NCBI RefSeq assembly: GCF_010078235.1
Contig: NZ_JAABOS010000006.1
Span: 1-64,000 of the forward strand
DNA from: Cognatundibacterium crateris
Lineage (GTDB): Bacteria > Pseudomonadota > Gammaproteobacteria > Burkholderiales > Burkholderiaceae_D
Direction of reading: 5' to 3'
Length of the DNA stretch: 64,000 nucleotides
In this document: in pieces, positions 34,642-50,040 of the stretch
Numbering within the stretch: the stretch's first letter is position 1
How the letters are laid out: every line of letters starts with the position of its first letter
The notes under the pieces: model-generated
Told to the model about the DNA's origin: nothing
Databases searched by the model: none
What the model saw: only the letters and a program-made list of their open reading frames with translations
Made by a program: the position numbers and the translations under genes

Positions 34642-35504
34642 GAGCCGTGCTGGTGCTGATGTGGTTGTTGCACTGGTTGCCGCTGCCGGTTTTAGGAAGA
34701 TTAGGGGAAGCTGTCGGCAGTTTGCTGTTTGGACTGCTGCGCAAACGGCGTCATATCGCGCTGACCAATTTACGCTTATGTCTGCCGCACTTGAGTGAGC
34801 AGGAGCGTCATCAGATCGCTAAGCAGCATTTTCAAATGTATGCACGCAGCGTGTTCGAGCGCGGTATTTTGTGGTGGGGCTCTGAAGCCCGTCTGAAGCG
34901 CCTGATTCAGGTTGAGCCTGCAGTTCCGCTGGATGTGATACAGTCCGGCCCGACCATACTGATGTGTCCGCATTTTGTGTGTCTGGATGTAGCCGGTGTC
35001 GCCGTGATGCTGGAGTCTTCACTGTGTTCGATTTATACCGAGCAGCGCAATAAAGTGTTTGATCAGGCTTTGCGCAAAGGCCGCTCGCGCTTCCGTCCGG
35101 TCAAACTGTTTTCGCGCGCTGAAGGCGTCAAGCCGATTATCCGTGCCATGAGCAATGAAGGGCTGCCTTACTTTATGTTGCCGGATATGGATTTTGGTGT
35201 GAAGAATGCTGACTTCATTCCCTTCTTCGGCATCCCCGCCGCAACCCTGACTGCACTGCCGCGCCTGGCTGCGTCTACCAACGCCAAAGTCGTGCCTGTG
35301 ATCGCCACCATGCTGCCTGATTATCAGGGATGGAAAGTCACTTTCCATCCCCCCTGGGACAATTATCCCTCCGGTGATCTGGCATCCGCCACCCGTGAAA
35401 TGAATGCGTTTATCGAACAGGAAGTATTGAAAGCCCCCTCCGAATACTTCTGGGCACACAAGCGTTTCAAGACCCGTCCCGAAGGTGAGCCCGGCGTGTA
35501 CTAA
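34638..35504 (+). CDS. Lysophospholipid/lipid A acyltransferase, LpxL/LpxM family, second paralogue
   Basis: 288 aa; ATGA overlap with the upstream acyltransferase. The motif HFVCLD (H-x4-D) and the DMDFGVKNADFIPFFG block match the family. It presumably installs the other secondary acyl chain of lipid A, LpxM-like in function, though the acyl length and position cannot be told. A 10-bp perfect terminator follows. Confidence 0.9.
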   Translation: MRAVLVLMWLLHWLPLPVLGRLGEAVGSLLFGLLRKRRHIALTNLRLCLPHLSEQERHQIAKQHFQMYARSVFERGILWWGSEARLKRLIQVEPAVPLDVIQSGPTILMCPHFVCLDVAGVAVMLESSLCSIYTEQRNKVFDQALRKGRSRFRPVKLFSRAEGVKPIIRAMSNEGLPYFMLPDMDFGVKNADFIPFFGIPAATLTALPRLAASTNAKVVPVIATMLPDYQGWKVTFHPPWDNYPSGDLASATREMNAFIEQEVLKAPSEYFWAHKRFKTRPEGEPGVY

Positions 35505-35530
35505 ACACGATCGGTCAGCACACTCAGAAG

Positions 35531-35562
35531 CTGCATGCCTAACAGGCATGCAGTTTTTTTTT
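35531..35562 (+). terminator. Terminator after the acyltransferase pair
   Basis: Perfect 10-bp stem CTGCATGCCT (35531-35540) with AGGCATGCAG (35544-35553), AAC loop, T9 tract. It marks the left edge of the accessory region. Confidence 0.93.
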
Positions 35563-35992
35563 GTTTTTTTGTTTTTTTTGTTTTGTTTTAATTGGAATCG
35601 TTGATTCCGTAATTCAACAATACCACTATAGGTTTTATTTATAGATTTACCTGTTTTAAATAGGTGTTTGGATATCGTTTTGTTTGAGTTTGTTAATACC
35701 AGTTAATAAATCGTATTTTGCAAACAACAATCCAAAAAAATAAATAAATTACTGTAATTTTATAAAAGTTTGCGTGTTAAATTAAAAAAAATGAAACATT
35801 TTTATGGTTAAAAAAAACGATTTGGGACGCCATAAACACCCTCCCCGATTTGTCTGGCAACACAACTTAAAACTGAGTGATGTTGATGAGTAAATAGCTA
35901 TACCGCACATTTTTGTAAGCAAAATTTTTCGGGCAATGATTATGAAAACTCAAGATTTTATTTCTAACCCATCTAACGCAGGAAGCACTCAA
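35563..35992. other. AT-rich region with T-tracts at the head of the accessory region
   Basis: About 430 bp without a gene, starting with broken poly-T (35554-35590) and staying far more A/T-rich than the surroundings. It must hold the promoter of the outer-membrane gene. AATTA-CTG-TAATT occurs near 35749. Such composition is typical of recently acquired or silencer-bound DNA; that reading is inference. Confidence 0.6.
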
Positions 35993-36634
35993 ATGAAGAC
36001 CAGGATTTCTATTTCAATTTGTGTCGCAACGCTGGCACTTGTTTCTTTCCCTTGTCTGGCTGCGTCGGAAACCGGTTTTTACACTGGGCTCAGTTTGGGG
36101 AAGTCGTACAATAAATTTGATTCCGAAGATACGGGCAAGATCATGGGCCCAACTACCTTGAATACGGTCGTAGAAAGCGATACTGCGATCGCCTTGATGG
36201 GCGGATATCAGTTCACGCCGATGTTTGGGCTGGAAGCGGAATATCTGAAATTAGGTCAATTCAAAATTCACGTGACCATGCCAAATGGTGTCGGCATTGC
36301 CGAAGACTATAAGGTCGATGCGTTGACTGCTGCGGCAACGGTCAAATTTCCTATCAATGCCAAATTCAGCGCATTTGGCAAAATCGGTGTTGCGGCGACT
36401 AGCGTGAATGACAATTATAAATTCTCAAATTCGCCGACTTTATATTCTTTCTCTAAGAGCCGGACATCCGCGTTATTTGGCGCTGGCGTGAGCTATGCAA
36501 TGACACCGCAAGTCGATTTGCGTGCTCAGTATCAGTATCTGGGTGAGGTGGGTAGCGCAATTAATGCCAATGGTGAAGGGACTGCACGTGCGCAAGCCAG
36601 TCTGTTTTCCTTCGCTCTCGTCTACCGCTTTTAA
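35993..36634 (+). CDS. OmpA-like/OMP beta-barrel outer-membrane protein
   Basis: 213 aa from MKTRISISIC, preceded by AGGAAG at 8 nt. Signal peptide about 1-22 (CLA), then a small eight-stranded barrel of the OMP_b-brl type: GFYTGLSLGKSYNKF at the start, VDLRAQYQYLGEVG late, and a terminal aromatic SFALVYRF. There is no peptidoglycan-binding OmpA domain. It lies 82 nt before the putative pathway genes and may or may not belong to them. Confidence 0.8.
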   Translation: MKTRISISICVATLALVSFPCLAASETGFYTGLSLGKSYNKFDSEDTGKIMGPTTLNTVVESDTAIALMGGYQFTPMFGLEAEYLKLGQFKIHVTMPNGVGIAEDYKVDALTAAATVKFPINAKFSAFGKIGVAATSVNDNYKFSNSPTLYSFSKSRTSALFGAGVSYAMTPQVDLRAQYQYLGEVGSAINANGEGTARAQASLFSFALVYRF

Positions 36635-36716
36635 GCATGCATAGCTGCTCGTCGCGAGCTCACCAGCTTCAGCGAGCCAGCTTGTTTAGCTGTTGAATCC
36701 ATACGGAGAAGACCCT

Positions 36717-37637
36717 ATGCTGCCGATTTTCTCATCACTGCTAACCCCGGTGTTGCGTCCATTGATGATACGCCGTATGCGCTTTAATCAGTCAGAGATT
36801 GAAGGCGTCGTTTTCAAAATTGCAGACACACTGGAAGAAAAAACCGCAGCATTCAAACTGGTACACGAGATGTACGTACGCCGTGGAATTATTCCTGCTT
36901 CGGAAAAAAACTGGCGCTTATCGGTGTTTCATTTGCTTCCGACTACCACCATCTTCGTCGCCAAGAGCGGCGACCGGATAATTGGCTCAGTGTCGCTGAT
37001 TGAGGATTCACCACTAGGCGTCCCTATGGAAGAGACGCATCCGAAAGAGATACTTTCGCTACGGCTGGCCGGCTTGCGTTTTGCCGAAGTAGGGGCACTT
37101 GCGGTCACGCAGGAAAGACGCGGCAAAGGCGTGTCTCTCATGCTGTATAACATCCTGTTGCGCTGGGCCAGGCAGTATCGCCTGATCCGCAATCTGGCCA
37201 TCGCTGTACACCCTCGTATTGAAAAATTTTTCAGTGTGATTTTTCTCTTCAAACGTATGGGGCCGGTTCACTCATACAAGAAGCTCAATTGCGCTCCGTC
37301 AGTGCCGCTGTGCGTTGATTTATCGACCGGATTGAAGCAATTCCGCGCTATCTATGATCGCCCTGACATGCATATAGGCCTCAGTCGCCATTCGGCCAAT
37401 GTATATCGTTTTTTTTGTGAGGAGTGGGAAGCAAATCTCTGCTTGCCTCAGCGCTCGCCTTTTATGCCGTGCTTACAGTCGCCACCGATATGGGGGCCGG
37501 ACGAGCTCATGTGGATTTTACGAAAAGGCGGCGTACGTCCTGCTGATTTGCCGCGTCAGCAAAGACGTGTGCTGACAAAGTACTACAGTAGTCTGCCCGA
37601 TCCCTCCATGCACACACTGCGACAAGAGGTATGCTAA
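36717..37637 (+). CDS. FeeM-like N-acyl amino acid synthase (GNAT/LuxI-like fold)
   Basis: 306 aa from MLPIFSSLLT; GGAGAAG lies upstream, and a TTG eight codons earlier is less likely. The region around EVGALAVTQERRGKGVSLML matches the acyl-binding loop of the GNAT superfamily, and the layout (residues about 35-215, ending KKLNCAPSVPLCVDL) fits the FeeM branch, which transfers acyl groups from ACP to tyrosine or other amino acids. A C-terminal extension of about 90 residues has no match I recognise. A TIGR03694-like exosortase-associated acyltransferase is the alternative, but no exosortase is in the window. First gene of a tight run. Confidence 0.7.
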   Translation: MLPIFSSLLTPVLRPLMIRRMRFNQSEIEGVVFKIADTLEEKTAAFKLVHEMYVRRGIIPASEKNWRLSVFHLLPTTTIFVAKSGDRIIGSVSLIEDSPLGVPMEETHPKEILSLRLAGLRFAEVGALAVTQERRGKGVSLMLYNILLRWARQYRLIRNLAIAVHPRIEKFFSVIFLFKRMGPVHSYKKLNCAPSVPLCVDLSTGLKQFRAIYDRPDMHIGLSRHSANVYRFFCEEWEANLCLPQRSPFMPCLQSPPIWGPDELMWILRKGGVRPADLPRQQRRVLTKYYSSLPDPSMHTLRQEVC

Positions 37638-37639
37638 TT

Positions 37640-38512
37640 ATGTTATTCGACTTCGGCTTACTGAAAACGATTTGGCGTGAGACCGGTACTCATCCACCCT
37701 TTACCCGGACTCCGGAAACAGATCTGGTCATGAACGATGAAGGATCGGTACTCGCCTATGAAAAAGGTGGGCGTCCGACCGGCGCGCTGGCGGGCGCATA
37801 TTTGTATCATTTGGCTCAGATGTGTGCATTGATCAAATCTGGGGATCTGGTGCTGGATCTGGGCTGTGGTCCGGGTAACTTGCTGGCGCAGGTTGCTAAA
37901 CTGAATCCACGCGCAGAATTTATCGGCGTTGATTTGTCCGAATCTATGCTGGCTCTGGCCGATTTACGCTTCAGGCAAGCTGAGATTCCCAACGTCGAAT
38001 TGCAGCTTGCCGATATGACCAGGCTCAGCCAGTTCGGTGATGCGAGTTTTGACACCATCATCTCTTCTATGGCGCTGCATCATCTGCCAGACATATCTGC
38101 TTTGGAGTGCTGCTTTGCCGAAATGGGACGGGTGCTGCGACCAAATGGTCGCATCTATCTGAATGATTTCGGGCGTCTGAAATGCCGTGAATCAGTCGGC
38201 TACTTTGTCGGGCGTGCAGCGGCCGGTGAAGAGCAGGCACTGGCCGATGATTACACGCAATCGCTGCACGCCGCATTTTCGAAAGAAGAATTCGAAGCGC
38301 TTGTCGCACGTTATTTGCAAGGAAGGGCCAGGGTATTTAGCACGATAATCAGCCCATTGACCGTGGTCATCAAAGGCGGCAGTTCCTCTCCTTCATTGGT
38401 GCCGAAGCGGGAACTGGACATGATCTATCGTGCTCTGCCTGCGCCACGCAAAAACGATGTGCAGCAACTGAAATTATTTCTGCGTCTGGGAGGGCTGCCA
38501 AGTGCACTCTGA
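37640..38512 (+). CDS. Class I SAM-dependent methyltransferase
   Basis: 290 aa from MLFDFGLLKT (an ATG three codons upstream overlaps the previous stop). Motif I VLDLGCGPGNLLAQV lies at about 70-84, the acidic SAM-ribose residue in FIGVDLS follows, and the post-II stretch FDTIISSMALHHLPD is a Methyltransf_11/25 hallmark. The N-terminal 65 residues and the late region may bind substrate. Which O-, N- or C-position is methylated is not visible. It is coupled to the acyltransferase upstream and overlaps the oxidase gene downstream. Confidence 0.85.
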   Translation: MLFDFGLLKTIWRETGTHPPFTRTPETDLVMNDEGSVLAYEKGGRPTGALAGAYLYHLAQMCALIKSGDLVLDLGCGPGNLLAQVAKLNPRAEFIGVDLSESMLALADLRFRQAEIPNVELQLADMTRLSQFGDASFDTIISSMALHHLPDISALECCFAEMGRVLRPNGRIYLNDFGRLKCRESVGYFVGRAAAGEEQALADDYTQSLHAAFSKEEFEALVARYLQGRARVFSTIISPLTVVIKGGSSSPSLVPKRELDMIYRALPAPRKNDVQQLKLFLRLGGLPSAL

Positions 38513-40184
38513 TTCCGGCGTCTGCTCCTCTGTAGCTGATTGCGGCAGCTTACATGCTGCCATACTCGAATGGCGTCTGGCGCTGGGTGAGCATGCAGTG
38601 CAGGATGCTCATGCGGCGATGCTCAGATTTGGTATGGATACATGCTCGCAATTGCGACAGATCGATGCGGTCATCACACCGGATAGGCAGGAGCAGCTAA
38701 GCGTATTAGTGAAGATCGCACGTTACCATGAAATTACGCTGTACCCAATCAGCACCGGACACAATTGGGGCTATGGTAGCGCTAAGCCAGCTGTCGATCA
38801 TTGTGTGATCGTCGATCTCGCGAAATTGAAGCGCATCATTGCGATGGATGTGGAATTGGGCCTGATCACTATTGAGCCTGGTGTTACCCAGGCTGATTTG
38901 AGGGCTTACCTCGATCAGCATAAGCTGCCTTTCCTGGTTCCCGTGACCGGGGCGGGGCCAAGCTGCAGTCTGATCGGTAATGCGCTTGAACGCGGCTATG
39001 GCGTCACTCCTGTCGCGGACCATTTTCAGGCTGTCACCTCGCTTGAAGCGATACTGCCTAACGGTGATTTGTACCGTTCTCCACTGACAGCCACGAGCAA
39101 GGCAGGTGCGCCATCCCAGGTATTCAAATGGGGCATAGGCCCTTATCTTGACGGCTTATTTGCACAGGGTAATTTCGGTATCGTGACTCAGATGACGATT
39201 GCACTTGCGCGGCGCCCGCAGCAGGTCAAGGCTTTTTACTTCTGGGTCGAACATGATGCGGATTTGGAGCGCGTGGTCGTCGCTGTACGGGAAGTGCTAC
39301 AGATCGTGGGTTCAAATGTCGGCGGTATCAACCTCATGAGCAGTGCACGTGTGCTTGCGATGTCTGTTCCTTATCCTGAAGAACTGGCAGAGAAAAATGC
39401 TGCACTGTCAGCCGCCACGATAGACGCACTCGCTAAACAACACGGAATCACAGCCTGGACCGGTGTGGGATCTGTTTATGGTAGCCGTGAACATGTCAAG
39501 GCGAGCTGTGCAGTCATCAGGCGCCTGCTCGCGCCCCACGTCAAACGTATCGTGTTCGCAGACCGTGCCCGTGTGCAGCTGTTGCAAAAGTTAGTCAGAC
39601 TCTTGCCTGCAAAGTTCTCGGCAAATCTGCCCGCGATGATAAATAAGATGGCTGGTGGCCTTGATTTGATGGAAGGCATACCCAATGAAGTCGCGTTGCC
39701 GCTGGCTTACTGGAAATCCGGTGTTACGCCGCCGTCATCGAAGCTGGATCCAGCGCGCGATGCCTGTGGATTGCTATGGTATGCACCAATAATTCCTATG
39801 CGCGCGCAAGCGGTACGTGATTACCTCACGATGGTACGCAGTGAGTGTGCACGCTTTGGAATCGAGCCAGCGGTCACGCTCACTTCGCTATCCGAACGCG
39901 GCTTCGACAGCACCCTGCCTATCCTGTTCAAGCGTGACCATTCTTGCCAGGAAGCCCGTGCTTTACAGGGATACCGTGCTCTTTTTGCTGCTGGTAAGGC
40001 GCTCGGCTTTGTTCCATATCGTGTCGCCAGCCAATTCATGGATCTGGTTGTTGATGCAGAGCAGACTTGCTGGCGCATGGCGCAAACTATGCAGCAATCC
40101 ATAGATCCCGGTGGCGTAATGGCAAATGGCCGCTATTCGCTGTGTGGCGTTAAAGAGCAGCGTGCAACTGAAAATAAGGATTAG
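38502..40184 (+). CDS. FAD-linked oxidase of the vanillyl-alcohol oxidase / p-cresol methylhydroxylase type
   Basis: 560 aa from a GTG start with GGGAGGG 7 nt ahead, overlapping the methyltransferase stop by 11 nt. The PCMH-type FAD-binding domain has ISTGHNWGYGSAK (about 77-89) and the LERGYGVTPVADHF segment, both close to VAO/4-cresol dehydrogenase/eugenol oxidase. A C-terminal FAD-oxidase domain follows (about 240-550). Relatives oxidise para-substituted phenols. No partner cytochrome gene is adjacent, so O2 may be the acceptor (oxidase type). Whether FAD is covalently bound cannot be told. Confidence 0.82.
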   Translation: MHSDSGVCSSVADCGSLHAAILEWRLALGEHAVQDAHAAMLRFGMDTCSQLRQIDAVITPDRQEQLSVLVKIARYHEITLYPISTGHNWGYGSAKPAVDHCVIVDLAKLKRIIAMDVELGLITIEPGVTQADLRAYLDQHKLPFLVPVTGAGPSCSLIGNALERGYGVTPVADHFQAVTSLEAILPNGDLYRSPLTATSKAGAPSQVFKWGIGPYLDGLFAQGNFGIVTQMTIALARRPQQVKAFYFWVEHDADLERVVVAVREVLQIVGSNVGGINLMSSARVLAMSVPYPEELAEKNAALSAATIDALAKQHGITAWTGVGSVYGSREHVKASCAVIRRLLAPHVKRIVFADRARVQLLQKLVRLLPAKFSANLPAMINKMAGGLDLMEGIPNEVALPLAYWKSGVTPPSSKLDPARDACGLLWYAPIIPMRAQAVRDYLTMVRSECARFGIEPAVTLTSLSERGFDSTLPILFKRDHSCQEARALQGYRALFAAGKALGFVPYRVASQFMDLVVDAEQTCWRMAQTMQQSIDPGGVMANGRYSLCGVKEQRATENKD

Positions 40185-40187
40185 CGC

Positions 40188-40994
40188 ATGGCGACGATAA
40201 ATACCAGCCGCTTGGCTGCATTGAATAATGGCACTGTGGCTGCGAGCACCTTAGGCGAGTGTCTGGCGGTCGACCAGATTGTACTGCTTAGACATATTTT
40301 GACTGCACTCAATTTGACTGTGGATAACAGTGCGCTCGCGACATTGGATGAGCGCTGCGCAGGTATGGGTATCAGCATTCAGGTCGCGATCATCGGGGAA
40401 TTTCTTGGCGAGGTGACCGCGCGCATGCCAAAGGCGAAACGTGATGCCACATTGGCGCAACTGAGCACCCATCCGTCAGACACCGTTCGCAGTTGGGCTG
40501 CCTTTGCTGTCGGCCGTACCAGTGCCGTACATAGTCTTACACAAAGGCTGGATTACATGAGGCCGTTCGCCGCAGATTCCCATTTTGGCGTTCGTGAGTG
40601 GGCGTGGATCGCAGTACGGCCCTATATTGCGGCTGATCTTGATCTCGCCTTGCATTGTTTGTTGCCATGGACTGCAGATTCCGATCCCAATATCCGTCGT
40701 TTTGCCTGTGAAAGTACGCGTCCACGCGGTGTCTGGTGCGAACACATAAAGCAACTCAAAGAACGCCCGGCTCAGGGTGAGGCTTTGCTTGAATGTCTGA
40801 AGGCTGACACTGAACGCTATGTCCAGAATTCCGTCGCCAACTGGATCAATGATGCCAGCAAGAGTGCGCCGGACTGGGCCATCCAGCTTTGTACGCGTTG
40901 GAAAAAAGAAGCCAATCCCGATACCAATAAAATCATTACGCGCGCCTTGCGCACCTTGAGTAAGAAAGATACATCGTTATTGAATATGTCTTAA
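40188..40994 (+). CDS. HEAT-repeat protein of the AlkC/AlkD DNA-alkylation-repair type
   Basis: 268 aa, all-helical HEAT repeats. The stretches ADSHFGVREWAWIAVRP (about 119-135), RRFACESTRPRGVWCEHI (about 165-182) and YVQNSVANWINDASKSAPDW (about 205-224) follow the pattern of AlkC/AlkD-like DNA glycosylases. AlkC and AlkD remove alkylated bases; relatives in antibiotic clusters give self-resistance to DNA-alkylating products. The start is 3 nt after the oxidase stop, so it is a full member of the operon. Catalytic residues were not aligned; a structural or non-enzymatic HEAT role is possible. Confidence 0.7.
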   Translation: MATINTSRLAALNNGTVAASTLGECLAVDQIVLLRHILTALNLTVDNSALATLDERCAGMGISIQVAIIGEFLGEVTARMPKAKRDATLAQLSTHPSDTVRSWAAFAVGRTSAVHSLTQRLDYMRPFAADSHFGVREWAWIAVRPYIAADLDLALHCLLPWTADSDPNIRRFACESTRPRGVWCEHIKQLKERPAQGEALLECLKADTERYVQNSVANWINDASKSAPDWAIQLCTRWKKEANPDTNKIITRALRTLSKKDTSLLNMS

Positions 40995-41008
40995 CGGACA
41001 TTCGTCGG

Positions 41009-41029
41009 GACACGTGCGGGTGTCTTTTT
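41009..41029 (+). terminator. Weak hairpin with T-tract after the HEAT-repeat gene
   Basis: GACAC (41009-41013) pairs with GTGTC (41020-41024), then T5. The short stem would give partial termination at best. Confidence 0.35.
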
Positions 41030-41053
41030 CATTGATGTTCAAAGGAGAAGTCT

Positions 41054-41706
41054 ATGTTATTGCAACAGGAATTGGATCAACTCAGCGCTGGGCTGGCACA
41101 ACAGGTACCGGCGCAAGTCTTGGCTACGTTTGGACGCGCGATACAGGAAATGAAGGTGTCGGGTATTGAGCAGAACAGTCTGCGCGTCGGTGACAGTGCG
41201 CCTTTTTTTCGTTGCCAGCTGCTGATGGTGAAACGGTCACTTTGAGCGGTTTGCTCGCACAGGGACCGTTGGTGCTGAATTTCTATCGCGGACTTTGGTG
41301 CCCATATTGCAATCTTGAGCTGGCAGCGCTGCAAAAAAGCCTGGCGACAATAGAGGGGCTGAATGCGACTCTGGTTGCGGTATCGCCGCAGACGCCGGAA
41401 GCGAGTGCCGCAACAGCGAGCAAGCTTGGCTTGTCATTCAAAGTATTGGTCGACCAGGGAAATCAGTTGGCCTGGGAGTTCGGTCTGGTCTTTACCTTGT
41501 CCGAATCCTTGCGCCCGATCTACGCAGCAATAGGCATAGATCTGCCAGCAGCTAATGGTGACAACAGCTTTATGCTGCCTATGCCAGCCACTTACATCAT
41601 CGCCCGTGACGGCACGATCGCGTATGCATTTGTCGATGCCGACTACACGCATCGTATGGAACCAAGCGACATGTGTGCTGTGCTTGAGCGCTTGAAGTCT
41701 GCCTGA
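41054..41706 (+). pseudogene. AhpC/TSA peroxiredoxin-like protein, frameshifted at a T7 tract
   Basis: Two frames make one protein of about 217 aa. The first (41054-41245) gives residues through VGDSAPFF and then reads nonsense to a stop. The second continues as FSLPAADGETVTLSGLL and runs to 41706, with the thioredoxin-fold motif GLWCPYCN and an intact C-terminus. The switch falls in T7 (41203-41209); one more T would restore the frame. Possible causes are a real mutation, a sequencing error, or slippage. Intact relatives reduce peroxides with the Cys-x-x-Cys. It lies within the pathway run, 59 nt after the HEAT gene. Confidence 0.8.
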
Positions 41707-41867
41707 TTGTCCAAACCCGGCGCGCTGCTGCGTTTCAGGGGAAAGCTCAGCTACGCGCGATTGCGCACGATTGCACACGAATACATGACTACGCACGACC
41801 AGGTATAACCAGGTACGAATGCGTACGTTTGTGCAGATTGATGAAATTGCCGGAGACTGGAATTGTT

Positions 41868-43634
41868 ATGAAAAAACTCGTCATTATCGGTGCCGGAATC
41901 GCTGGCAATCTGACAGCCATGTATTTTCGCAAGCTGCTTCCGGAGATTGATATTACCTTGGTTGGGAGGTTAGACCGCAAGCGTCCGATAGTCGGTGAGT
42001 CGACGGTGGAATTGACCACACACTTTCTTGAAGCCTTGGGACTCGGCACTCTCCTTGAGGAAAGTCATTACCATAAATATGGGCTGACCTATTACTTCAA
42101 ATTGCAGCCTGATCCCAGCTGTCGCCGTTATGTAATTCACGAAGCGCCGGGCGTACTGCGTATGCCAGCCTATAACATTAACCGCAACAGGTTTGATCGC
42201 GATATAGCAGGCATCAATCAGCAGTTGGGTATCCGTATTCTGCGTGCAGATATCGCTGAGGTGTCACTGGCTGAAAAACGGCCAGACCGTCACGTCCTGA
42301 CTGTACGTCACAGCGAAGGTGAGCAGAGTACTCTGGAAGCTGACTGGATAGTCGATGCGAGCGGACGTAACCGTTTTCTCGCGAGAAAATTACAGCTGAA
42401 CAAACCCGTCCCTTATCAACGCAGCAGTTTCTGGTTTCGCCTGACGAAATTCGATCGTACCCGCCTGCGAGAAATAGACGACACGCGGACCGAGCACCGT
42501 TGCTACGACCCCTACTATGTGACCCACCATTTTTACGGCAAAGGATATTGGATCTGGCTGATTCCTATGCGGTCGGAAAATGGTGATGACCTGATCAGCA
42601 TAGGCGTGACTTACCGTGCCGAGCTGATGTACGGAGAGGTCACATCGATAGAACAATTCATCGCCCTGATGCAACGTGACCACCCGGTGATTGCCGGGCT
42701 GATCCACACTGGCGTGATCGTTGATACGAATTTGTACAAAAATTATATGTACGAGTCGTCTCAGTATTATTCGGAAAACGGCTGGTTCCTGGTGGGTGAT
42801 TCTGGCTTTACCTTTGATCCTGCCAATAGTGCAGGTCTGGCCTATTTGGCGCATCAGATTCCGCAAGTTGCGGCCATGATCAAGAAGGATATGGCTGGAA
42901 CCCTGACACCAGCCTACGTCGCCTCACTGGAGCGGCATTTGGTGGCGCAATTGGCACTGCAGGATGCCTGGAGCAAATGGTATGAGATCATGCATGAGCC
43001 GCTCAAAATGGCGTGGACGCTGCTGGTTGCCAATCTGGGTTATTTTCATATCAGCCTGCCCAATTACGTGAATGGCGGATTCCTTGACGGGCACCAGGCG
43101 CGGCATTTTGCCGATCTGGTACCGCGCTACATGCCCGACAAACAGCCGGCAGCATATCCTTTTCCCTGCCTGATTGATGCCGTGCTGGCTTCCGATGGTA
43201 ACAAGTTGGCCGACTGCATTCCCAATCTCTATCCAAAAACAGTTAACTGGGATTTGTACCGGCCGGATGAGGCGGCGCGGCCGCGCTATGCGGCTCGGTA
43301 TTTCCGTATGCTGGTTCGCATGCGTCTGAAGTTGATGGGGATGGTGAAGTGGCAGTTCAAGCTCTCCCATTTCATATTATTACAAAAGCATATACGTGGT
43401 CTGATAGCAGATGCTGGACAAAGCGTTGCGCTGACGCTGTTTCCCAGTCTGTTTTATAAATATGGAACTCCGCCTGAATCACTGGCTTCACCATTTGAGC
43501 CGCATGCTGCTTTCCTCCGTCTGGCGTCTCATGACGCGGCAGCATGTGCGCCTTTGCTACAAAAAAATGGACGCCAGTTGTCTGCTATTGCTGCCGGGAG
43601 CATGCAAGCGAGCTCAGCCGAGATGCACGTTTGA
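41868..43634 (+). CDS. Flavin-dependent halogenase-like FAD oxidoreductase
   Basis: 588 aa from MKKLVIIGAGIAG. The N-terminal GxGxxG (8-13) binds FAD; GES (43-45) matches the halogenase GESxxP region without its Pro. Lys70 in HKYGLTYYF sits where the catalytic lysine of tryptophan halogenases stands, WxWxIP is present as WIWLIP (228-233), and FDPANSAG (316-323) fits their FxPxSxG motif. Such enzymes use FADH2, O2 and chloride or bromide to halogenate indole, pyrrole or phenol rings. Substrate is unknown, and a non-halogenating member of the fold remains possible. No flavin reductase is adjacent. Confidence 0.72.
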   Translation: MKKLVIIGAGIAGNLTAMYFRKLLPEIDITLVGRLDRKRPIVGESTVELTTHFLEALGLGTLLEESHYHKYGLTYYFKLQPDPSCRRYVIHEAPGVLRMPAYNINRNRFDRDIAGINQQLGIRILRADIAEVSLAEKRPDRHVLTVRHSEGEQSTLEADWIVDASGRNRFLARKLQLNKPVPYQRSSFWFRLTKFDRTRLREIDDTRTEHRCYDPYYVTHHFYGKGYWIWLIPMRSENGDDLISIGVTYRAELMYGEVTSIEQFIALMQRDHPVIAGLIHTGVIVDTNLYKNYMYESSQYYSENGWFLVGDSGFTFDPANSAGLAYLAHQIPQVAAMIKKDMAGTLTPAYVASLERHLVAQLALQDAWSKWYEIMHEPLKMAWTLLVANLGYFHISLPNYVNGGFLDGHQARHFADLVPRYMPDKQPAAYPFPCLIDAVLASDGNKLADCIPNLYPKTVNWDLYRPDEAARPRYAARYFRMLVRMRLKLMGMVKWQFKLSHFILLQKHIRGLIADAGQSVALTLFPSLFYKYGTPPESLASPFEPHAAFLRLASHDAAACAPLLQKNGRQLSAIAAGSMQASSAEMHV

Positions 43635-43636
43635 GC

Positions 43637-45115
43637 ATGAATCGCCCCGATTTTTTACACATGGGAGCAATGGAAATTGCGCAGCGTATACGACGCCGTG
43701 AGGTGTCAGCGCTGGAAGTGATGCTAGCCCACATCGCGCGTGCCGAGGCGCTCAATCCTGGCTTGAATGCGATTGTCGTACCACGCTATGAACTGGCACT
43801 CGCGGAAGCGCGGCAGGCAGATATCGCCTTGGATACAGAGCTTGTAATCGGTCCGCTTCATGGTGTGCCATGCAGCATCAAGGAAGGGCTGGGCATGGCG
43901 GGTTTACCACACACCAGCGGATCGGTCCTGCGCATGGGCAAGCTGGCAAAGAGCGATGGAAGCATCGTTGCGCGGGTGCGTCAGGCCGGGGCAATTCCTA
44001 TAGGCCTGACGAATATGTCTGAGATGGCACTGTGGCCGGAATCGGACAATCATGTTTATGGACGTACCAGCAATCCATATGACCTGCGTCGCACCTCGGG
44101 CGGCAGCAGTGGCGGGGAGGCGGCGAGCGTCGCTGCCGGTGCTGCCGCCTTCGGACTTGGTACCGATGGTGGTGGGTCTATCCGTATTCCGGCTGCCTAT
44201 TGCGGTGTTTTTGGGCATAAGCCCAGCAGCGGTCTGGTACCCCTGAGTGGCCATCTACCTTTGGATGATATGTTCGCAGCTGAACCTGGCGCACAAGCCA
44301 TGGCCAGATATTTTGCCGCCGGTCCGATTGCCAGGTCTGCTGCAGATTTGATGCCGCTGCTGCGCATCATCGCAGGTCCCGATGGAATCGATAGCAATAT
44401 GTGTCAGTCCGTTCTGCGAGACCCGGCTAGCGTCGATTTCGCTGGCAAGACCGTGCTGGTATGCGAAGCACCGTCGGTTCGCGGAGTCGGGAAGATTAGC
44501 TCTGCCGCACAACAAGCGGTGGCACGGGCTGCACATGCTTTCGAATTACGTGGTGCCAGAGTCCGTTCGTGGGAGCATCCCTTATTGCGCGATTCGTTTG
44601 ACATCTGGCTGGCAACGACGATGGCAGCTGCGGGGCCATCGCTCAATCGACTTGTGGGCAATGGCAGTCCTGTTGCCTTGCTCTCTGCTGCAATGGCAGC
44701 TTTGCTGGGTAAGCCTCGCCACACGCCAGGCCCGCTGCTCGCCTGCGTGGTGGAACGCTACGCTTCGCCGGGGCCGGCGCGCGTTGCCAAACTGCTGGCG
44801 GCGGGAAGATCGCTGCGTGAGGACTTGAGTAAGGCGCTTGGCCCTGACGGCTTGTTGCTGTTGCCGGTGACGCCAGGCCCGGCACCTTTGCACGGTGGTT
44901 CGCTCTGGCATCCATTCGATGTGGCCTATTGCGCACTGTTCAATGCTCTGGAATTGCCTGCGACAGTTGCGCCCGTGGGGTTGGCGGAGTCAGGGTTACC
45001 CGCTTCGGTGCAACTGGTCGCTTGTCACAACGCGGACCATATCACGATCGCCGGTGCTTTATTGCTCGAGGATGCATTGGGGGGCTGGTTTCCACCGCCA
45101 ATAGCAGAGCCTTGA
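43637..45115 (+). CDS. Amidase signature family hydrolase
   Basis: 492 aa from MNRPDFLHMG, 2 nt after the previous stop. The catalytic triad is complete: Lys82 (PCSIKEG), cis-Ser157 (GGSSGG) and nucleophile Ser181 (TDGGGSIR), with the same spacing as fatty acid amide hydrolase (142/217/241). No signal peptide, so cytosolic. The family cleaves amide bonds of fatty amides, peptides and aryl amides. In a run that begins with an N-acyl amino acid synthase it could remove or exchange the acyl group; that is inference. Confidence 0.88.
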   Translation: MNRPDFLHMGAMEIAQRIRRREVSALEVMLAHIARAEALNPGLNAIVVPRYELALAEARQADIALDTELVIGPLHGVPCSIKEGLGMAGLPHTSGSVLRMGKLAKSDGSIVARVRQAGAIPIGLTNMSEMALWPESDNHVYGRTSNPYDLRRTSGGSSGGEAASVAAGAAAFGLGTDGGGSIRIPAAYCGVFGHKPSSGLVPLSGHLPLDDMFAAEPGAQAMARYFAAGPIARSAADLMPLLRIIAGPDGIDSNMCQSVLRDPASVDFAGKTVLVCEAPSVRGVGKISSAAQQAVARAAHAFELRGARVRSWEHPLLRDSFDIWLATTMAAAGPSLNRLVGNGSPVALLSAAMAALLGKPRHTPGPLLACVVERYASPGPARVAKLLAAGRSLREDLSKALGPDGLLLLPVTPGPAPLHGGSLWHPFDVAYCALFNALELPATVAPVGLAESGLPASVQLVACHNADHITIAGALLLEDALGGWFPPPIAEP

Positions 45116-45161
45116 ATTCACCAGTCCTTCTCTTTGTTGTCAACTTTCAGGTGAATCAAAT

Positions 45162-46370
45162 ATGTATCCATCTATGAGTGTCACTGAAATATTTCTGATC
45201 GCAATGCTAATGATATTTGCGATTCCTTATACCATTTGGCGCGTGTGCAATACCGACTATTACGCACCTTTGGTTGTGGTACAGATCATTGCCGGCATTG
45301 TGCTTGGTCCTGGCGTGCTTGGCGCGCTGTATCCGGAATATTACAAGTTTGTTTTCAGCGCGCCGGTGATTCAATCGTTGAACGGGATTGCACTCTGGGC
45401 CGTCATGATTTTCGTCATGATCGCCGGTATAGAACTCGACTTTCGCAAAGTCTGGGAATACAGAAAAGAAAGCACGATCACTGCACTCTTGGCACTAGGT
45501 ACGCCGATGTTGTTTGGCTGTGTCACCGCCCTTGGCATCTTGATGTACGACGGTTGGAAAGGACCACTTGCATCGGACTGGCAGTTCGTGATCGGGATAG
45601 GCATGGCGTGCGCAGTGACGGCATTACCTATTTTGATTTTGCTGATGGAAAAACTGGACATCTTGCGCCAACCGATAGGGCAACGCATACTGCGCTACGC
45701 CAGTCTGGACGATGTTGCTATCTGGGGCGTACTGGCGATACTCCTGCTTGACTGGACGCGTGTGGGGCGGCAGTTGGGGTTTTTACTGGTTTATACCGTA
45801 GTCACTATCCTGTTTCGCGCAGTGATGGTGCGGCTGCAGGAACGTGACCGTTGGTATGTCGCCCTGATCTGGCTTGCCAGCTGCGCATTGGCTGCGGATT
45901 GGGCAGGTCTGCACTACATGGTTGGCGCATTCCTGGCGGGTGTGGTGATGGATGCGGATTGGTATGATCAGGAAAAAATGGACCAACTCCGGCATCACGT
46001 ACTACTCGTCATCATGCCGGTATTCTTTCTCAGCACCGGATTAAAAACGAACTGGGCGATGGGGGGCACGATGGTGTTTGTCGTTGCTGCCTTTCTGTTG
46101 CTGGCTTCGGTCAGTGGTAAGCTGGCTGGTGTCCACCTCGCTGGAAGGATACTCAAATGGGGCGAAGGCGAAGCCTCGGTGATCGGATGGCTGCTACAGA
46201 CTAAGGCCTTAATTATGATTATTTTTGTCAATATTCTGCTCGAAAAAGGTATTATCGCCAGTGAGACATTTACCGCACTGCTACTGATGGCCATAGGCAG
46301 CACCATGCTTACCGTACCCGTGGTACATCCCAAACTGGCACGCTTCCGGGCACTCATTTTCAAACACTGA
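45162..46370 (+). CDS. CPA2 family cation:proton antiporter, membrane domain only
   Basis: 402 aa with about 12 hydrophobic helices of the Na+/H+ exchanger fold (PF00999); MIAGIELDF and GAFLAGVVMDADW contain the acidic and polar residues of the ion site. Unlike the antiporter at 7.1 kb it has no TrkA regulatory domain. A second start five codons downstream is possible. Last gene of the accessory run, 46 nt after the amidase. It could protect the cell by ion homeostasis or be unrelated to the pathway. Confidence 0.82.
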   Translation: MYPSMSVTEIFLIAMLMIFAIPYTIWRVCNTDYYAPLVVVQIIAGIVLGPGVLGALYPEYYKFVFSAPVIQSLNGIALWAVMIFVMIAGIELDFRKVWEYRKESTITALLALGTPMLFGCVTALGILMYDGWKGPLASDWQFVIGIGMACAVTALPILILLMEKLDILRQPIGQRILRYASLDDVAIWGVLAILLLDWTRVGRQLGFLLVYTVVTILFRAVMVRLQERDRWYVALIWLASCALAADWAGLHYMVGAFLAGVVMDADWYDQEKMDQLRHHVLLVIMPVFFLSTGLKTNWAMGGTMVFVVAAFLLLASVSGKLAGVHLAGRILKWGEGEASVIGWLLQTKALIMIIFVNILLEKGIIASETFTALLLMAIGSTMLTVPVVHPKLARFRALIFKH

Positions 46371-46797
46371 GTTCCACTTCGTGCATCCATTATTTACTCT
46401 TGTTCGGAGGCGCTTTCGCCTGAGCCATGATGGCGAGTGGCTCTCGATATGGATCTTTGCAAGATGGGGGGCAAAGGCTGGAGCTGATTGGCGATTTCGC
46501 GCAACAGCGCCAACAGTCTGATTGACAGCGACTTCAGCCTGACTTTACAATCGCGGCTCAGGTGCTCAGGGGCGCCTGCCCGCAAAAGAGGCTCTCACCC
46601 TGTGTTATCGCATCCTTACCGGCCAGCCGGTTTGGCCATCATCAGATGTGATCAGCGATTATTCGTTTGACGTAGCGGGTCGTCAGATAACGAATTGGAG
46701 CGATCATGTTGTCTTTAGTTTTATTTCAGTTTTACCCCTGTCCGGTTTCCTGTTCCATGTATGCACGGCCTGTCTTCAGTTACAGCGAGGTGCAGGT
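46371..46797. other. Intergenic region, 427 bp
   Basis: I see no supported gene. A short hairpin AGGCG-CTTT-CGCCT stands near 46410 without a T-tract. Small frames on both strands lack ribosome sites and family resemblance. It separates the accessory run from the core genes and may include decayed sequence. Confidence 0.5.
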
Positions 46798-47640
46798 ATG
46801 AATCCGCTGATACAGGAAATGAAAACGCGCGCACGTTTGTTGTTGAAGCTGTTGCAGCAGGGACATGCACCTGCATGCAAACATGCGCTGGTGCTCAGTC
46901 GTCAGCAGCACTGGACTTTGCCAGAGTGCTGGCAGTTACGCCATAGTCTGAACCTGTGCGCCGCTGAGCTGGGCTTTCAACATTGGGAGCATGCCTTGCA
47001 GGTCTTATCCGGTAAAGCGGCGCCCGGCAGCGATATGGCGACTTTATGGCATGGCGCTGAAGTCGCAGGCCTGACCAATCTGTGGTTCAGTGAGTATGCA
47101 GAAGCGCGTCAGTGCGCTGAGCAGGATGCGAGTCTGTTCCTGCTCCCTTACCGCAAGCAGTTTATGTTGGTCAGAAGCGAGTATCTGCAAGCGCTGGGGC
47201 TGACTGCTGATGCCGGTGTCTGGGATGGCATACAGCGCGATCTGGTACAGGCCTATGCGACGCCAGCCTGGCAACAACTGGTGTTACAGCGTTTACGCCA
47301 TACCAGAACCGAACGTCTGCATCAGCGCTGGAATGTGCAGCTGGCGAATCTGGATTTGCACAGTAACGCGCAGGAAGCGGCGCGTGTCATGGCCAGTTTT
47401 GTACGTGATGACCGTTTACTGAAAATACCTGAGCAAAGAAAAAAACGGCTGGTGATATTGCACTGGCTGCTGGCGCAGCTGGATCAGCACAGGCGATATC
47501 CGGAAGCGGAGCTGAATCAATTCCTGCTACAGTTTCACGAAGATTGCGCGACGCTGCGAAGAGAAATGATCATGCACGGTTTGATGCAGCGTGAGAATGC
47601 AGTGTATTGGTGTGTGACGGCAGCGAACAAGGAAAGCTGA
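46798..47640 (+). CDS. DUF2087 domain-containing protein
   Basis: 280 aa from MNPLIQEMKT, chosen for the purine-rich site just before the ATG. The last 75 residues (RRYPEAELNQFLLQFHED, then TLRREMIMHGLMQRE) match DUF2087, a winged-helix-like domain seen in regulators. The N-terminal part contains LGFQHWEHALQVLSG, as in small toxin/antitoxin-adjacent or ankyrin-like proteins, but I do not recognise it firmly. No function is assigned. It converges on phhA. Confidence 0.7.
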   Translation: MNPLIQEMKTRARLLLKLLQQGHAPACKHALVLSRQQHWTLPECWQLRHSLNLCAAELGFQHWEHALQVLSGKAAPGSDMATLWHGAEVAGLTNLWFSEYAEARQCAEQDASLFLLPYRKQFMLVRSEYLQALGLTADAGVWDGIQRDLVQAYATPAWQQLVLQRLRHTRTERLHQRWNVQLANLDLHSNAQEAARVMASFVRDDRLLKIPEQRKKRLVILHWLLAQLDQHRRYPEAELNQFLLQFHEDCATLRREMIMHGLMQRENAVYWCVTAANKES

Positions 47641-47708: not shown

Positions 47709-48605
47709 TTACTGTGCAGGCAGTAATTCCACTTCATGCGGCAACAGGGTATTTGCTGGCAATGGATTACCTGATCTGAGCTTATCGTAGTAAGGCGTAA
47801 AGTCAGGCGCGGTACCGTCAAACAATTCCTGGAAACTGTCGATCACAAAATAGGTTTCCTGATAGCTGTCTATCTTGTACAAGGTATTCAGGCAGCGTTC
47901 TATCTCCAGATGGATGTGACGCGAACTGGTGCCCGGTGTCAGGCAGTATTCGACTTCACCGCCGGAAGACAGGATGCCCGCGCCGTAGATGCGTAAACCT
48001 TGCGGCGTATTGATCAGGCCGAATTCCACGGTGTACCAGTACAGGCGCGCCAGCTGATCGAGTCCACCCAGCTTCATCGCCTTGAGGCCGCCTTTGCCGT
48101 ACAGCTGAATGAAATCGGCAAACACAGGATTGAACAGCATGGGCACATGCCCGAAGAAATCGTGGAATACATCCGGCTCGACGATGTAGTTGAATTCTTC
48201 CGGTGTGCGCAGCCAGACTGTGACCGGGAAGCGGCGATTGGCCAGATGTTCAAAGAAAGTCAGTTCAGGAATCAGACCCGGTACCGCAACGATAGTCCAG
48301 CCAGTCGCAGCAAATAATTGTTGCGAGGTTTTTTCAAATTCCGGGATGCCATCGGCCGCATTCATCGCCTGTAGTGCCTCGATGAATTCATCACACGCAC
48401 GTCCTGGCAGCAAGGCCATCTGACGCTGATACAGACGTCGCCACAGCGCATGTTCTTCTTCGGTATAGGCAGCCCAATCCTGGCTGACTACATAGTGCGC
48501 ATCCGCCTTGCTATAGTCGCCGCGCAGCGCGGCACCATCTGATTTTTCAGCAACGGTGGCGAGAAAATCCGCATTGCTGACGGTGGTAACTGTATTCGTA
48601 TCCAT
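47709..48605 (-). CDS. phhA: Phenylalanine 4-monooxygenase
   Basis: 298 aa from MDTNTVTTVS. Iron ligands are the two His in FHDFFGHVP and the Glu in YWYTVEFGL, the facial triad of pterin-dependent aromatic amino acid hydroxylases; the monomeric bacterial form lacks the regulatory ACT domain. It hydroxylates phenylalanine to tyrosine with tetrahydropterin and O2. It follows hppD in the same direction but a strong terminator lies between, so each may have its own promoter. The pterin recycling enzyme (phhB) is not in the window. Confidence 0.96.
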   Translation of the reverse strand: MDTNTVTTVSNADFLATVAEKSDGAALRGDYSKADAHYVVSQDWAAYTEEEHALWRRLYQRQMALLPGRACDEFIEALQAMNAADGIPEFEKTSQQLFAATGWTIVAVPGLIPELTFFEHLANRRFPVTVWLRTPEEFNYIVEPDVFHDFFGHVPMLFNPVFADFIQLYGKGGLKAMKLGGLDQLARLYWYTVEFGLINTPQGLRIYGAGILSSGGEVEYCLTPGTSSRHIHLEIERCLNTLYKIDSYQETYFVIDSFQELFDGTAPDFTPYYDKLRSGNPLPANTLLPHEVELLPAQ

Positions 48606-48624
48606 TGTTTTAATCTTTTTTAGA

Positions 48625-48657
48625 CAAAAGGCCGACATACAAAGTGTCGGCCTTTTG
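48625..48657 (-). terminator. Terminator after hppD
   Basis: Perfect 13-bp stem (48625-48637 with 48645-48657) with T4 in the 3' arm on both strands. Confidence 0.82.
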
Positions 48658-48684
48658 TTGGAGTCTCACATTAGTGCAGCAAGC

Positions 48685-49800
48685 TTATACGCTTGCTTTC
48701 TCATCTTTCAGTACACCGCGGCGTATCTGATCCAGTTCTATGGATTCAAACAGCGCGCGGAAGTTACCTTCGCCAAAGCCCTGATCGCCTTTGCGCTGGA
48801 TGATTTCAAAGAAGATAGGGCCGATCACGGTGGTCGTGAAAATCTGCAGCAGCAATTCACGTGAAGTTTCTGTGCTCTTACCGTCGATCAGAATGCGCAG
48901 TTTGCGCAATTCTTCCAGATTTTCGCCATGGCCAGGCAGGCGGCGGTCGACCAGGTCGTAATAGGTTTCTATCGTATCCTGGAAAGAAACGCCGGCTGCC
49001 TTCATATCGGCCACGGTTTTGTACACATTGTCGGTACCCATCGCGATATGCTGCACACCTTCGCCGTGATACAGGTCCAGATATTCTGCGATCTGGGACT
49101 TGTCGTCGGACGATTCGTTGATAGGAATACGGATTTTTCCGCAAGGGGAAGTCATGGCTTTGGACTTCAGACCTGTATGCTTACCGGCGATATCGAAGTA
49201 ACGGATTTCGCGGAAGTTGAACAGGCTTTCATAGAAGTCTGCCCATTCCTTCATGCGGCCACGATACACATTGTGGGTCAGGTGGTCGATATAGGTCAGG
49301 CCATTGCCGACTGGATTAGGGGCTACGCCAGGAATAGCAACGAAGTCCGCATCATAAATGCTGATGTTGCCGATGGAACCAGGCTCAGCGCCATCTTTGC
49401 CATGCCAGCGGTCGACGAAATAAATCAGGGAATCACCGATACCTTTGATGGCAGGAATATTCAGTTCCATAGGACCGGTTTTGTTATCAAAGCCCCATGC
49501 GCCCAGATCGAGTGCGCGTTTGTAAGCGGCATTCGCATCTTTCACGCGGAACGCGAAGGCGCATACGCAAGAACCATGTTTGCGTGCGAATTTTTGTGCA
49601 AAAGAGTCAGGTTCTGCATTGATGATGAAGTTCACATCGCCTTGACGATACAGCGTTACATCCTTGGTGCGGTGTTTAGCGATAGCGGTAAAGCCCATGC
49701 TGATAAACAGTTCGCCCATGGCTTTTGGGTCCGGTGCGGCGTACTCTACGAATTCAAACCCATCGGTCCCCATCGGGTTGTCCCAAGTCTGGAAGGTCAT
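48685..49800 (-). CDS. hppD: 4-hydroxyphenylpyruvate dioxygenase
   Basis: 371 aa from MTFQTWDNPM, preceded by GGAGA. Two vicinal-oxygen-chelate domains; iron ligands fit His in YIDHLTHNV, His in GVQHIAMGT and Glu in the C-terminal GFGEGNFRALFESIE. It turns 4-hydroxyphenylpyruvate into homogentisate in tyrosine breakdown. Divergent from an Lrp-type gene that likely controls it; homogentisate 1,2-dioxygenase and fumarylacetoacetase are not in the window. Confidence 0.96.
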   Translation of the reverse strand: MTFQTWDNPMGTDGFEFVEYAAPDPKAMGELFISMGFTAIAKHRTKDVTLYRQGDVNFIINAEPDSFAQKFARKHGSCVCAFAFRVKDANAAYKRALDLGAWGFDNKTGPMELNIPAIKGIGDSLIYFVDRWHGKDGAEPGSIGNISIYDADFVAIPGVAPNPVGNGLTYIDHLTHNVYRGRMKEWADFYESLFNFREIRYFDIAGKHTGLKSKAMTSPCGKIRIPINESSDDKSQIAEYLDLYHGEGVQHIAMGTDNVYKTVADMKAAGVSFQDTIETYYDLVDRRLPGHGENLEELRKLRILIDGKSTETSRELLLQIFTTTVIGPIFFEIIQRKGDQGFGEGNFRALFESIELDQIRRGVLKDEKASV

Positions 49801-50040
49801 GCTTGTCTCCTGTGTCAAATCATCGAATGTAGAACCGATGTCGCCTGCGTCCAGTCTGCCGGATAATTGCAGGCTTGCATCAGTCTTTATGGCTGTATCA
49901 ATGTCCGTTTCCGGATACTTTTTGATGCAGATCAAACTCACAGTATAGTCCGCAAAACGCGCCATAAAATTCCAAATTTATCCAAAGCTGACTAAAATTG
50001 CGCAATAATATTGCTCATATCAATCAATCCTTGGCAAATC

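Follow-up and report, generated by a model that had tools for sequence, protein, structure and literature searches.

Introduction

The N-acyl tyrosine and dehydrotyrosine pathways are the closest described systems to the gene set reported here, a predicted operon of eight plus-strand units (A to H, 36717-46370). It lies in a 64,000-nucleotide stretch of Cognatundibacterium crateris DNA (the window; NZ_JAABOS010000006.1, positions 1 to 64,000), on contig C39 of a 4.3 Mb genome in 42 contigs. The described pathways include FeeM systems, the NasY systems of thalassotalic acids, kyonggic acids and stieleriacines, and Tyz of Mycobacterium. They resemble our operon in having a FeeM-type synthase first, an oxidative tailoring enzyme and, in some cases, a methyltransferase. 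Their dehydro bond, according to the available sections of PMC12479983, is made with ThiF and nitroreductase family proteins. The operon instead carries a vanillyl-alcohol oxidase (VAO)/p-cresol methylhydroxylase (PCMH)-type enzyme, a halogenase, an amidase and a DNA-glycosylase homologue. Neither ThiF nor nitroreductase gave a Pfam match among the ten proteins scanned between 35936 and 47637, and the words halogen, vanillyl and FAD are absent from PMC12479983.

A second point of comparison is glycosylase self-resistance in genotoxin clusters. There, too, a homologue of HEAT-like-repeat alkylpurine glycosylases sits inside a biosynthetic operon (PMC8626424, PMC8934636, PMC9040887). In the available sections of these sources, the resistance enzymes are of the AlkD (YtkR2) and AlkZ (YcaQ) types, and AlkC appears just as a laboratory comparison enzyme, whereas the homologue in our operon belongs to the AlkC branch and has a putative resistance role. 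The first-pass annotation of this DNA could not match the gene set to a described cluster, and we recognised no match in the open-licence literature searched, although it may be described elsewhere.

On balance, we favor the view that this island operon, which lacks nonribosomal peptide synthetase (NRPS) and polyketide synthase (PKS) genes, probably turns a fatty-acylated aromatic amino acid into a halogenated small molecule, with D, E and H in protective roles. If so, halogenated molecules derived from amino acids would gain a conserved, mobile family of clusters that searches for NRPS or PKS core enzymes would miss.

Results and Discussion

The operon is a conserved, linked gene set. We found 14 further loci, spread over several distantly related bacteria: 12 in Pseudomonas, one in another genus of the window's family (G1194) and one on a Methylorubrum plasmid. 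Thirteen of these have the complete set of eight families, arranged as in the window, and the fourteenth, on the plasmid, has seven, rearranged. Thus, the linkage, which is directly observed, is real and exceeds what chance would give. The earlier proposal of a co-inherited gene set with no NRPS or PKS inside 36717-46370 is borne out, as the genes are nowhere scattered among these relatives but linked in 14/14 further loci.

A scan with the halogenase-like protein F, using one genome per species across 84,980 species, returned 11 loci. Six were from Pseudomonas, and each of the six has the complete set with its arrangement unchanged from the window. Within Pseudomonas, F is present in 12/398 genomes, which is not a clean frequency because six were already known from the species-wide scan; the six newly found loci also have eight families in order. 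Among 383 genomes of the window's family, F occurs in two, the window's own and G1194, which has the whole operon. Within the Oxalobacteraceae, the gene order recurs in G1194 but is not a general family trait. Identity to the window's proteins is 38-47% for A, 43-56% for B, 42-50% for C, 44-50% for D, 43-58% for E, 46-60% for F and 42-53% for G, where joined open reading frame (ORF) pieces of broken genes are not averaged.

The Methylorubrum populi copy is carried by pMPPM04, a mobilizable plasmid with a MOBP relaxase. Its order is D-A-B-C-F-G-(NAD(P)H oxidoreductase)-H, E is absent, and an Rrf2 regulator lies upstream. In 12/12 Pseudomonas loci and in G1194 (13/15 loci in all), the operon is preceded by a MarR gene, which had no match in the window or the Methylorubrum locus.

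Several candidate relatives were set aside. The idea that the whole genus carries the operon was rejected, with VAO-like genes in 3/43 genus genomes, including the window's own. One of these is on a short contig (L021) where the rest of the operon is absent. Weak F relatives in three genomes of the class (29-31% identity) and in four Chloroflexota (27-29%) do not represent this operon. Neither does a 40% identical F relative in a Rhodobacteraceae metagenome-assembled genome (L015), where tblastn found no other operon gene. A class-wide DNA search for a Pseudomonas handle gave short matches only.

The operon is a genomic island. It occupies a variable segment of ~11 kb (35511-46517), bordered by an lpxL-like gene and a DUF2087 gene. 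The close relative G551 has 129 bp at the same place, between flanks 93.0-94.1% identical to the window's. Island status follows from this empty site, together with the rarity of the operon in the family (2/383). G540 has ~4.3 kb of other genes at the site (L070), including an AAA ATPase pair. The GC content of the operon genes (0.51-0.60 each) does not stand out.

The biosynthetic genes belong to recognizable families. A Pfam profile scan backs the name of each gene from A to H, and the names acyl amino acid synthase, VAO-type oxidase, halogenase and amidase in the first-pass annotation pass both profile and motif tests. Gene A (36717-37637; alternative TTG start at 36693) matches Pfam FeeM with 128.2 bits (cut-off 27; E 3.2e-37) and the profile of the solved FeeM structure 2g0b (E 1.7e-16). 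It is thus a predicted N-acyl amino acid synthase of the FeeM family.

FeeM-family products offer an alternative account of the operon. As in other FeeM/NasY systems, its product might be an N-acyl aromatic amino acid derivative with a signalling or surface-lipid role, and D, E and H would merely be general stress genes travelling along. N-acyl tyrosines of the thalassotalic, kyonggic and stieleriacine type are known, and PMC12479983 reports kyonggic acids from Massilia. Furthermore, in G573, of the window's genus, a VAO-like gene is paired with two FeeM-like genes next to one for a PEP-CTERM protein (L020), without B, D, E, F or G. However, D and the amidase are each present in 15/15 loci, and neither is needed for a final N-acyl product. 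We regard this account as unlikely.

Gene B (37631-38512) encodes a class I S-adenosylmethionine-dependent methyltransferase (Pfam Methyltransf_31). Gene C (38502-40184) encodes a flavoenzyme of the VAO/4-cresol-dehydrogenase type (Pfam FAD_binding_4). Its two best solved matches are 9ffk and 4-cresol dehydrogenase, and the profile match covers most of the protein. Tyr91 and Tyr506-Arg507 of C align with the Tyr and Tyr-Arg of 4-cresol dehydrogenase (1wve) that we take to be phenolate-binding positions; Tyr506 and Arg507 are missing solely in the truncated row from L021. The Tyr or His that holds the flavin covalently in such enzymes is not seen in C at the place where extrapolation beyond the aligned part would put it. 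The natural substrate of C is likely to be an N-acyl aromatic amino acid.

Gene F (41868-43634; Pfam Trp_halogenase) is halogenase-like in its signature motifs. Lys70, Trp228-x-Trp230-x-Ile-Pro and Phe316-x-Pro318-x-x-Ser321-x-Gly323 are invariant in 9/9 aligned homologues, and the glycine motif GxGxxG (GAGIAG at 8) is present in all rows. We assume the usual roles for these motifs, with Lys70 as the presumed catalytic lysine. F shares with flavin-dependent halogenases of the CmlS/PltA type the FAD (flavin adenine dinucleotide) fold, the catalytic-Lys position, WxWxIP and FxPxxSxG, and Lys70 aligns with the PltA lysine (HMMER). It differs from them in its low identity, in an operon without a carrier protein and in forming its own clade with 40-60% identical members. 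The motifs thus mark F as a predicted flavin-dependent halogenase-type enzyme.

F might also be a flavin hydroxylase, so that the product would be hydroxylated rather than halogenated. Its identity to structurally known halogenases is ~28% over profile regions, and its NCBIfam matches include QhpG and LodB/GoxB-type flavin monooxygenases. The invariance of Lys70, WxWxIP and FxPxxSxG, along with best solved matches to CmlS, PltA and ChlB4, makes a hydroxylase improbable.

Gene G (43637-45115; Pfam Amidase) encodes an amidase-signature hydrolase whose Lys, cis-Ser and Ser positions are invariant in 8/8 aligned proteins. Its best solved matches include the colibactin amidase ClbL (2.6e-58), which has no bearing on the substrate of G. 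Amidases and VAO-type enzymes, whose families include degradative members, raise the question of whether the amidase and flavoenzymes break down an external acylated or halogenated phenol. The MarR gene preceding most copies is compatible with such a catabolic or detoxifying operon, since MarR regulators often respond to phenols. Against it, known members of the FeeM-type synthase family and of the halogenase type to which F belongs, with all its motifs, have synthetic roles, and the conserved set has no ring-cleavage gene. Catabolism is therefore quite improbable.

D is a homologue of AlkC-branch DNA glycosylases. The protein (gene at 40188-40994) matches Pfam HEAT_2 and DNA_alkylation weakly (22 bits) and agrees with AlkC in both fold and sequence profile, without the C-terminal extension of 365-residue AlkC proteins. 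An unspecific HEAT repair or lyase protein was rejected because the AlkC match is far better. The original label, HEAT repair protein, is corrected accordingly to the more precise one of an AlkC relative. We take Glu121 and Glu156 to be the catalytic residues of AlkC, a numbering that fits the glutamates at 121 and 156 of L040. D Glu175 is the equivalent of Glu156 in both the MAFFT and the HMMER alignment; the MAFFT alignment gave a row for 15/17 loci and left out L077 and L079. Separately, L105 and L106 each hold a free-standing MarR and AlkC-like pair, homologous to the operon regulator and D, without biosynthetic genes.

Placement in the AlkC branch makes a DNA-damaging product more likely. 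That the operon carries a DNA-repair gene of its own is a hint in the same direction. Quinone methides alkylate DNA, and a product of this kind would explain the presence of D in all 15 loci.

E is a redoxin whose reading frame is broken in the window. The gene (41054-41706; Pfam AhpC-TSA) encodes an AhpC/TSA-type protein with a WCP[YF]C motif. Read from the ATG at 41054, the frame ends shortly beyond a stretch of seven T (~41201-41207), and the remainder lies one frame back. A short G+C-rich stem (41182-41201) directly precedes the T run on its 5' side. E is one open frame in 13/13 other loci that have it, and the break may be a mutation, an assembly error or slippage. Of the eight reading units first described, the positions and spacing stand, but E is not a single open frame.

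The last slot of the operon is filled by two antiporter lineages. H (45162-46370), a predicted cation:proton antiporter of the CPA2 type, scores 119.4 bits against Na_H_Exchanger (PF00999; cut-off 26.2) and 95.8 bits against TIGR00932, below the cut-off of 238.3. Antiporters of Pseudomonas and G1194 form one lineage (56% identity between them) and those of the window and Methylorubrum another (54%), with 25-26% identity across the two. Kef-like protection from electrophiles by H is a guess.

Homologues of H often stand near halogenase genes. H is 61-78% identical to antiporters in 32 other genus genomes. A Trp_halogenase gene lies within 500 bp of the homologue in 20/32, within 5 kb in 26/32 and within 10 kb in 28/32, with none on the contig in 4/32; these are raw counts without a random-gene background, from genus loci related by descent. 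The count left out 13 weak PF04820 rows (E > 1e-25) and two second antiporter fragments. The PF04820 search did not report F in the window's own genome; therefore, it misses divergent halogenases. At three loci (L072, L073 and L075), H homologues stand with TonB-receptor-like and sugar-utilisation-like genes, as named by eye. In G298 (L022), too, an antiporter gene adjoins one of the Trp_halogenase family, and a plasmid of Janthinobacterium has another in front of a polyketide synthase (L026).

The families suggest an order of steps. The sequence itself shows families, conserved key residues, the fold of D, gene linkage and island status; substrate, step order, halogen, product and protective roles are what we infer. 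A would join a fatty acyl group, by analogy with FeeM from acyl-acyl carrier protein, to an aromatic amino acid, for which tyrosine is the likeliest candidate. Oxidation of the para-phenol side chain by C would pass through a p-quinone methide, and F would chlorinate or brominate the activated ring. B would add its methyl group after C or on another atom, because methylating the phenol oxygen first would block C. G would later remove the acyl group or cleave another amide. Acylation might thus serve as a handle or mask a reactive product. D may excise alkylated bases and, with the redoxin E and the Kef-like antiporter H, shield the producer or aid release of an electrophile.

A more specific version of this scheme is possible, and we hold it tentatively. 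The product would be a DNA alkylator, halogenated and forming a p-quinone methide, made by acylating, arming and de-acylating, with no need for an NRPS or PKS. D would act as an AlkC-branch self-resistance glycosylase, and the last slot would take CPA2 antiporters that are partners of halogenases. Such antiporters also accompany flavin halogenases in loci for sugar uptake and polyketides, so that the scheme, if true, would indicate a general partnership of the two protein types. More broadly, the operon would open a link of CPA2 antiporters with flavin halogenases to testing, and would make AlkC-branch glycosylases candidate resistance markers in the search for natural products that damage DNA.

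Several observations weigh against the favored pathway. B can be assigned to the methyltransferase superfamily and no finer. The extrapolated covalent-flavin site of C, outside the aligned part, holds Asp or Asn in 10 rows and no Tyr or His. Lys70 of F is opposite Val, not Lys, of CmlS in the HMMER alignment. The equivalent of AlkC Glu121 in D depends on the alignment: Glu137 with MAFFT and 13 AlkC proteins, Trp140 with HMMER. One gene is frame-broken in 3/15 loci: E in the window, B in L054 and G in L059, the last two in Pseudomonas. As E is broken in the window and absent in Methylorubrum, it is not essential. Finally, the terminator described by the first-pass annotation was not found: the scan gave no canonical plus-strand terminator-like site 3' of H up to 46900. 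Overall, that annotation's interpretation is partly supported.

The layout of A to H is compact. The ORF listing confirms eight plus-strand units with a largest gap of 161 nt. Successive gaps from A to H are -7, -11, 3, 59, 161, 2 and 46 nt, where the F-G gap of 2 nt counts G from the ATG at 43637 and would be -13 if counted from an in-frame non-start position. Co-transcription of A to H is inferred. The AT-rich 5' region described earlier is present (GC 0.389 at 35500-36499). The terminator scan of 36400-46900 gave 11 sites, where shuffled sequences averaged 10.5, and the promoter scan, with four sites against 8.4 expected, was uninformative.

An OmpA-like outer-membrane beta-barrel gene (35936-36634, plus strand) lies within the variable segment, 82 nt 5' of A. 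It could, from its position, be the first gene of the operon transcript. No copy was found by tblastn in the Pseudomonas, G1194 (g29) or Methylorubrum operon loci.

Two other readings were considered. Phage origin was dropped as a lead, as a comparison of C with viral_contigs gave no relative. For a defence system, PADLOC gave no convincing match, with mad2 against B (1.7e-22, in the methyltransferase region) and a weak HEAT_CxxC_PDDEXK against D.

Beside the island, on the opposite strand, are genes resembling phenylalanine hydroxylase and 4-hydroxyphenylpyruvate dioxygenase (47709-49965; named by eye). They are also found in G540 and G551 and are therefore native.
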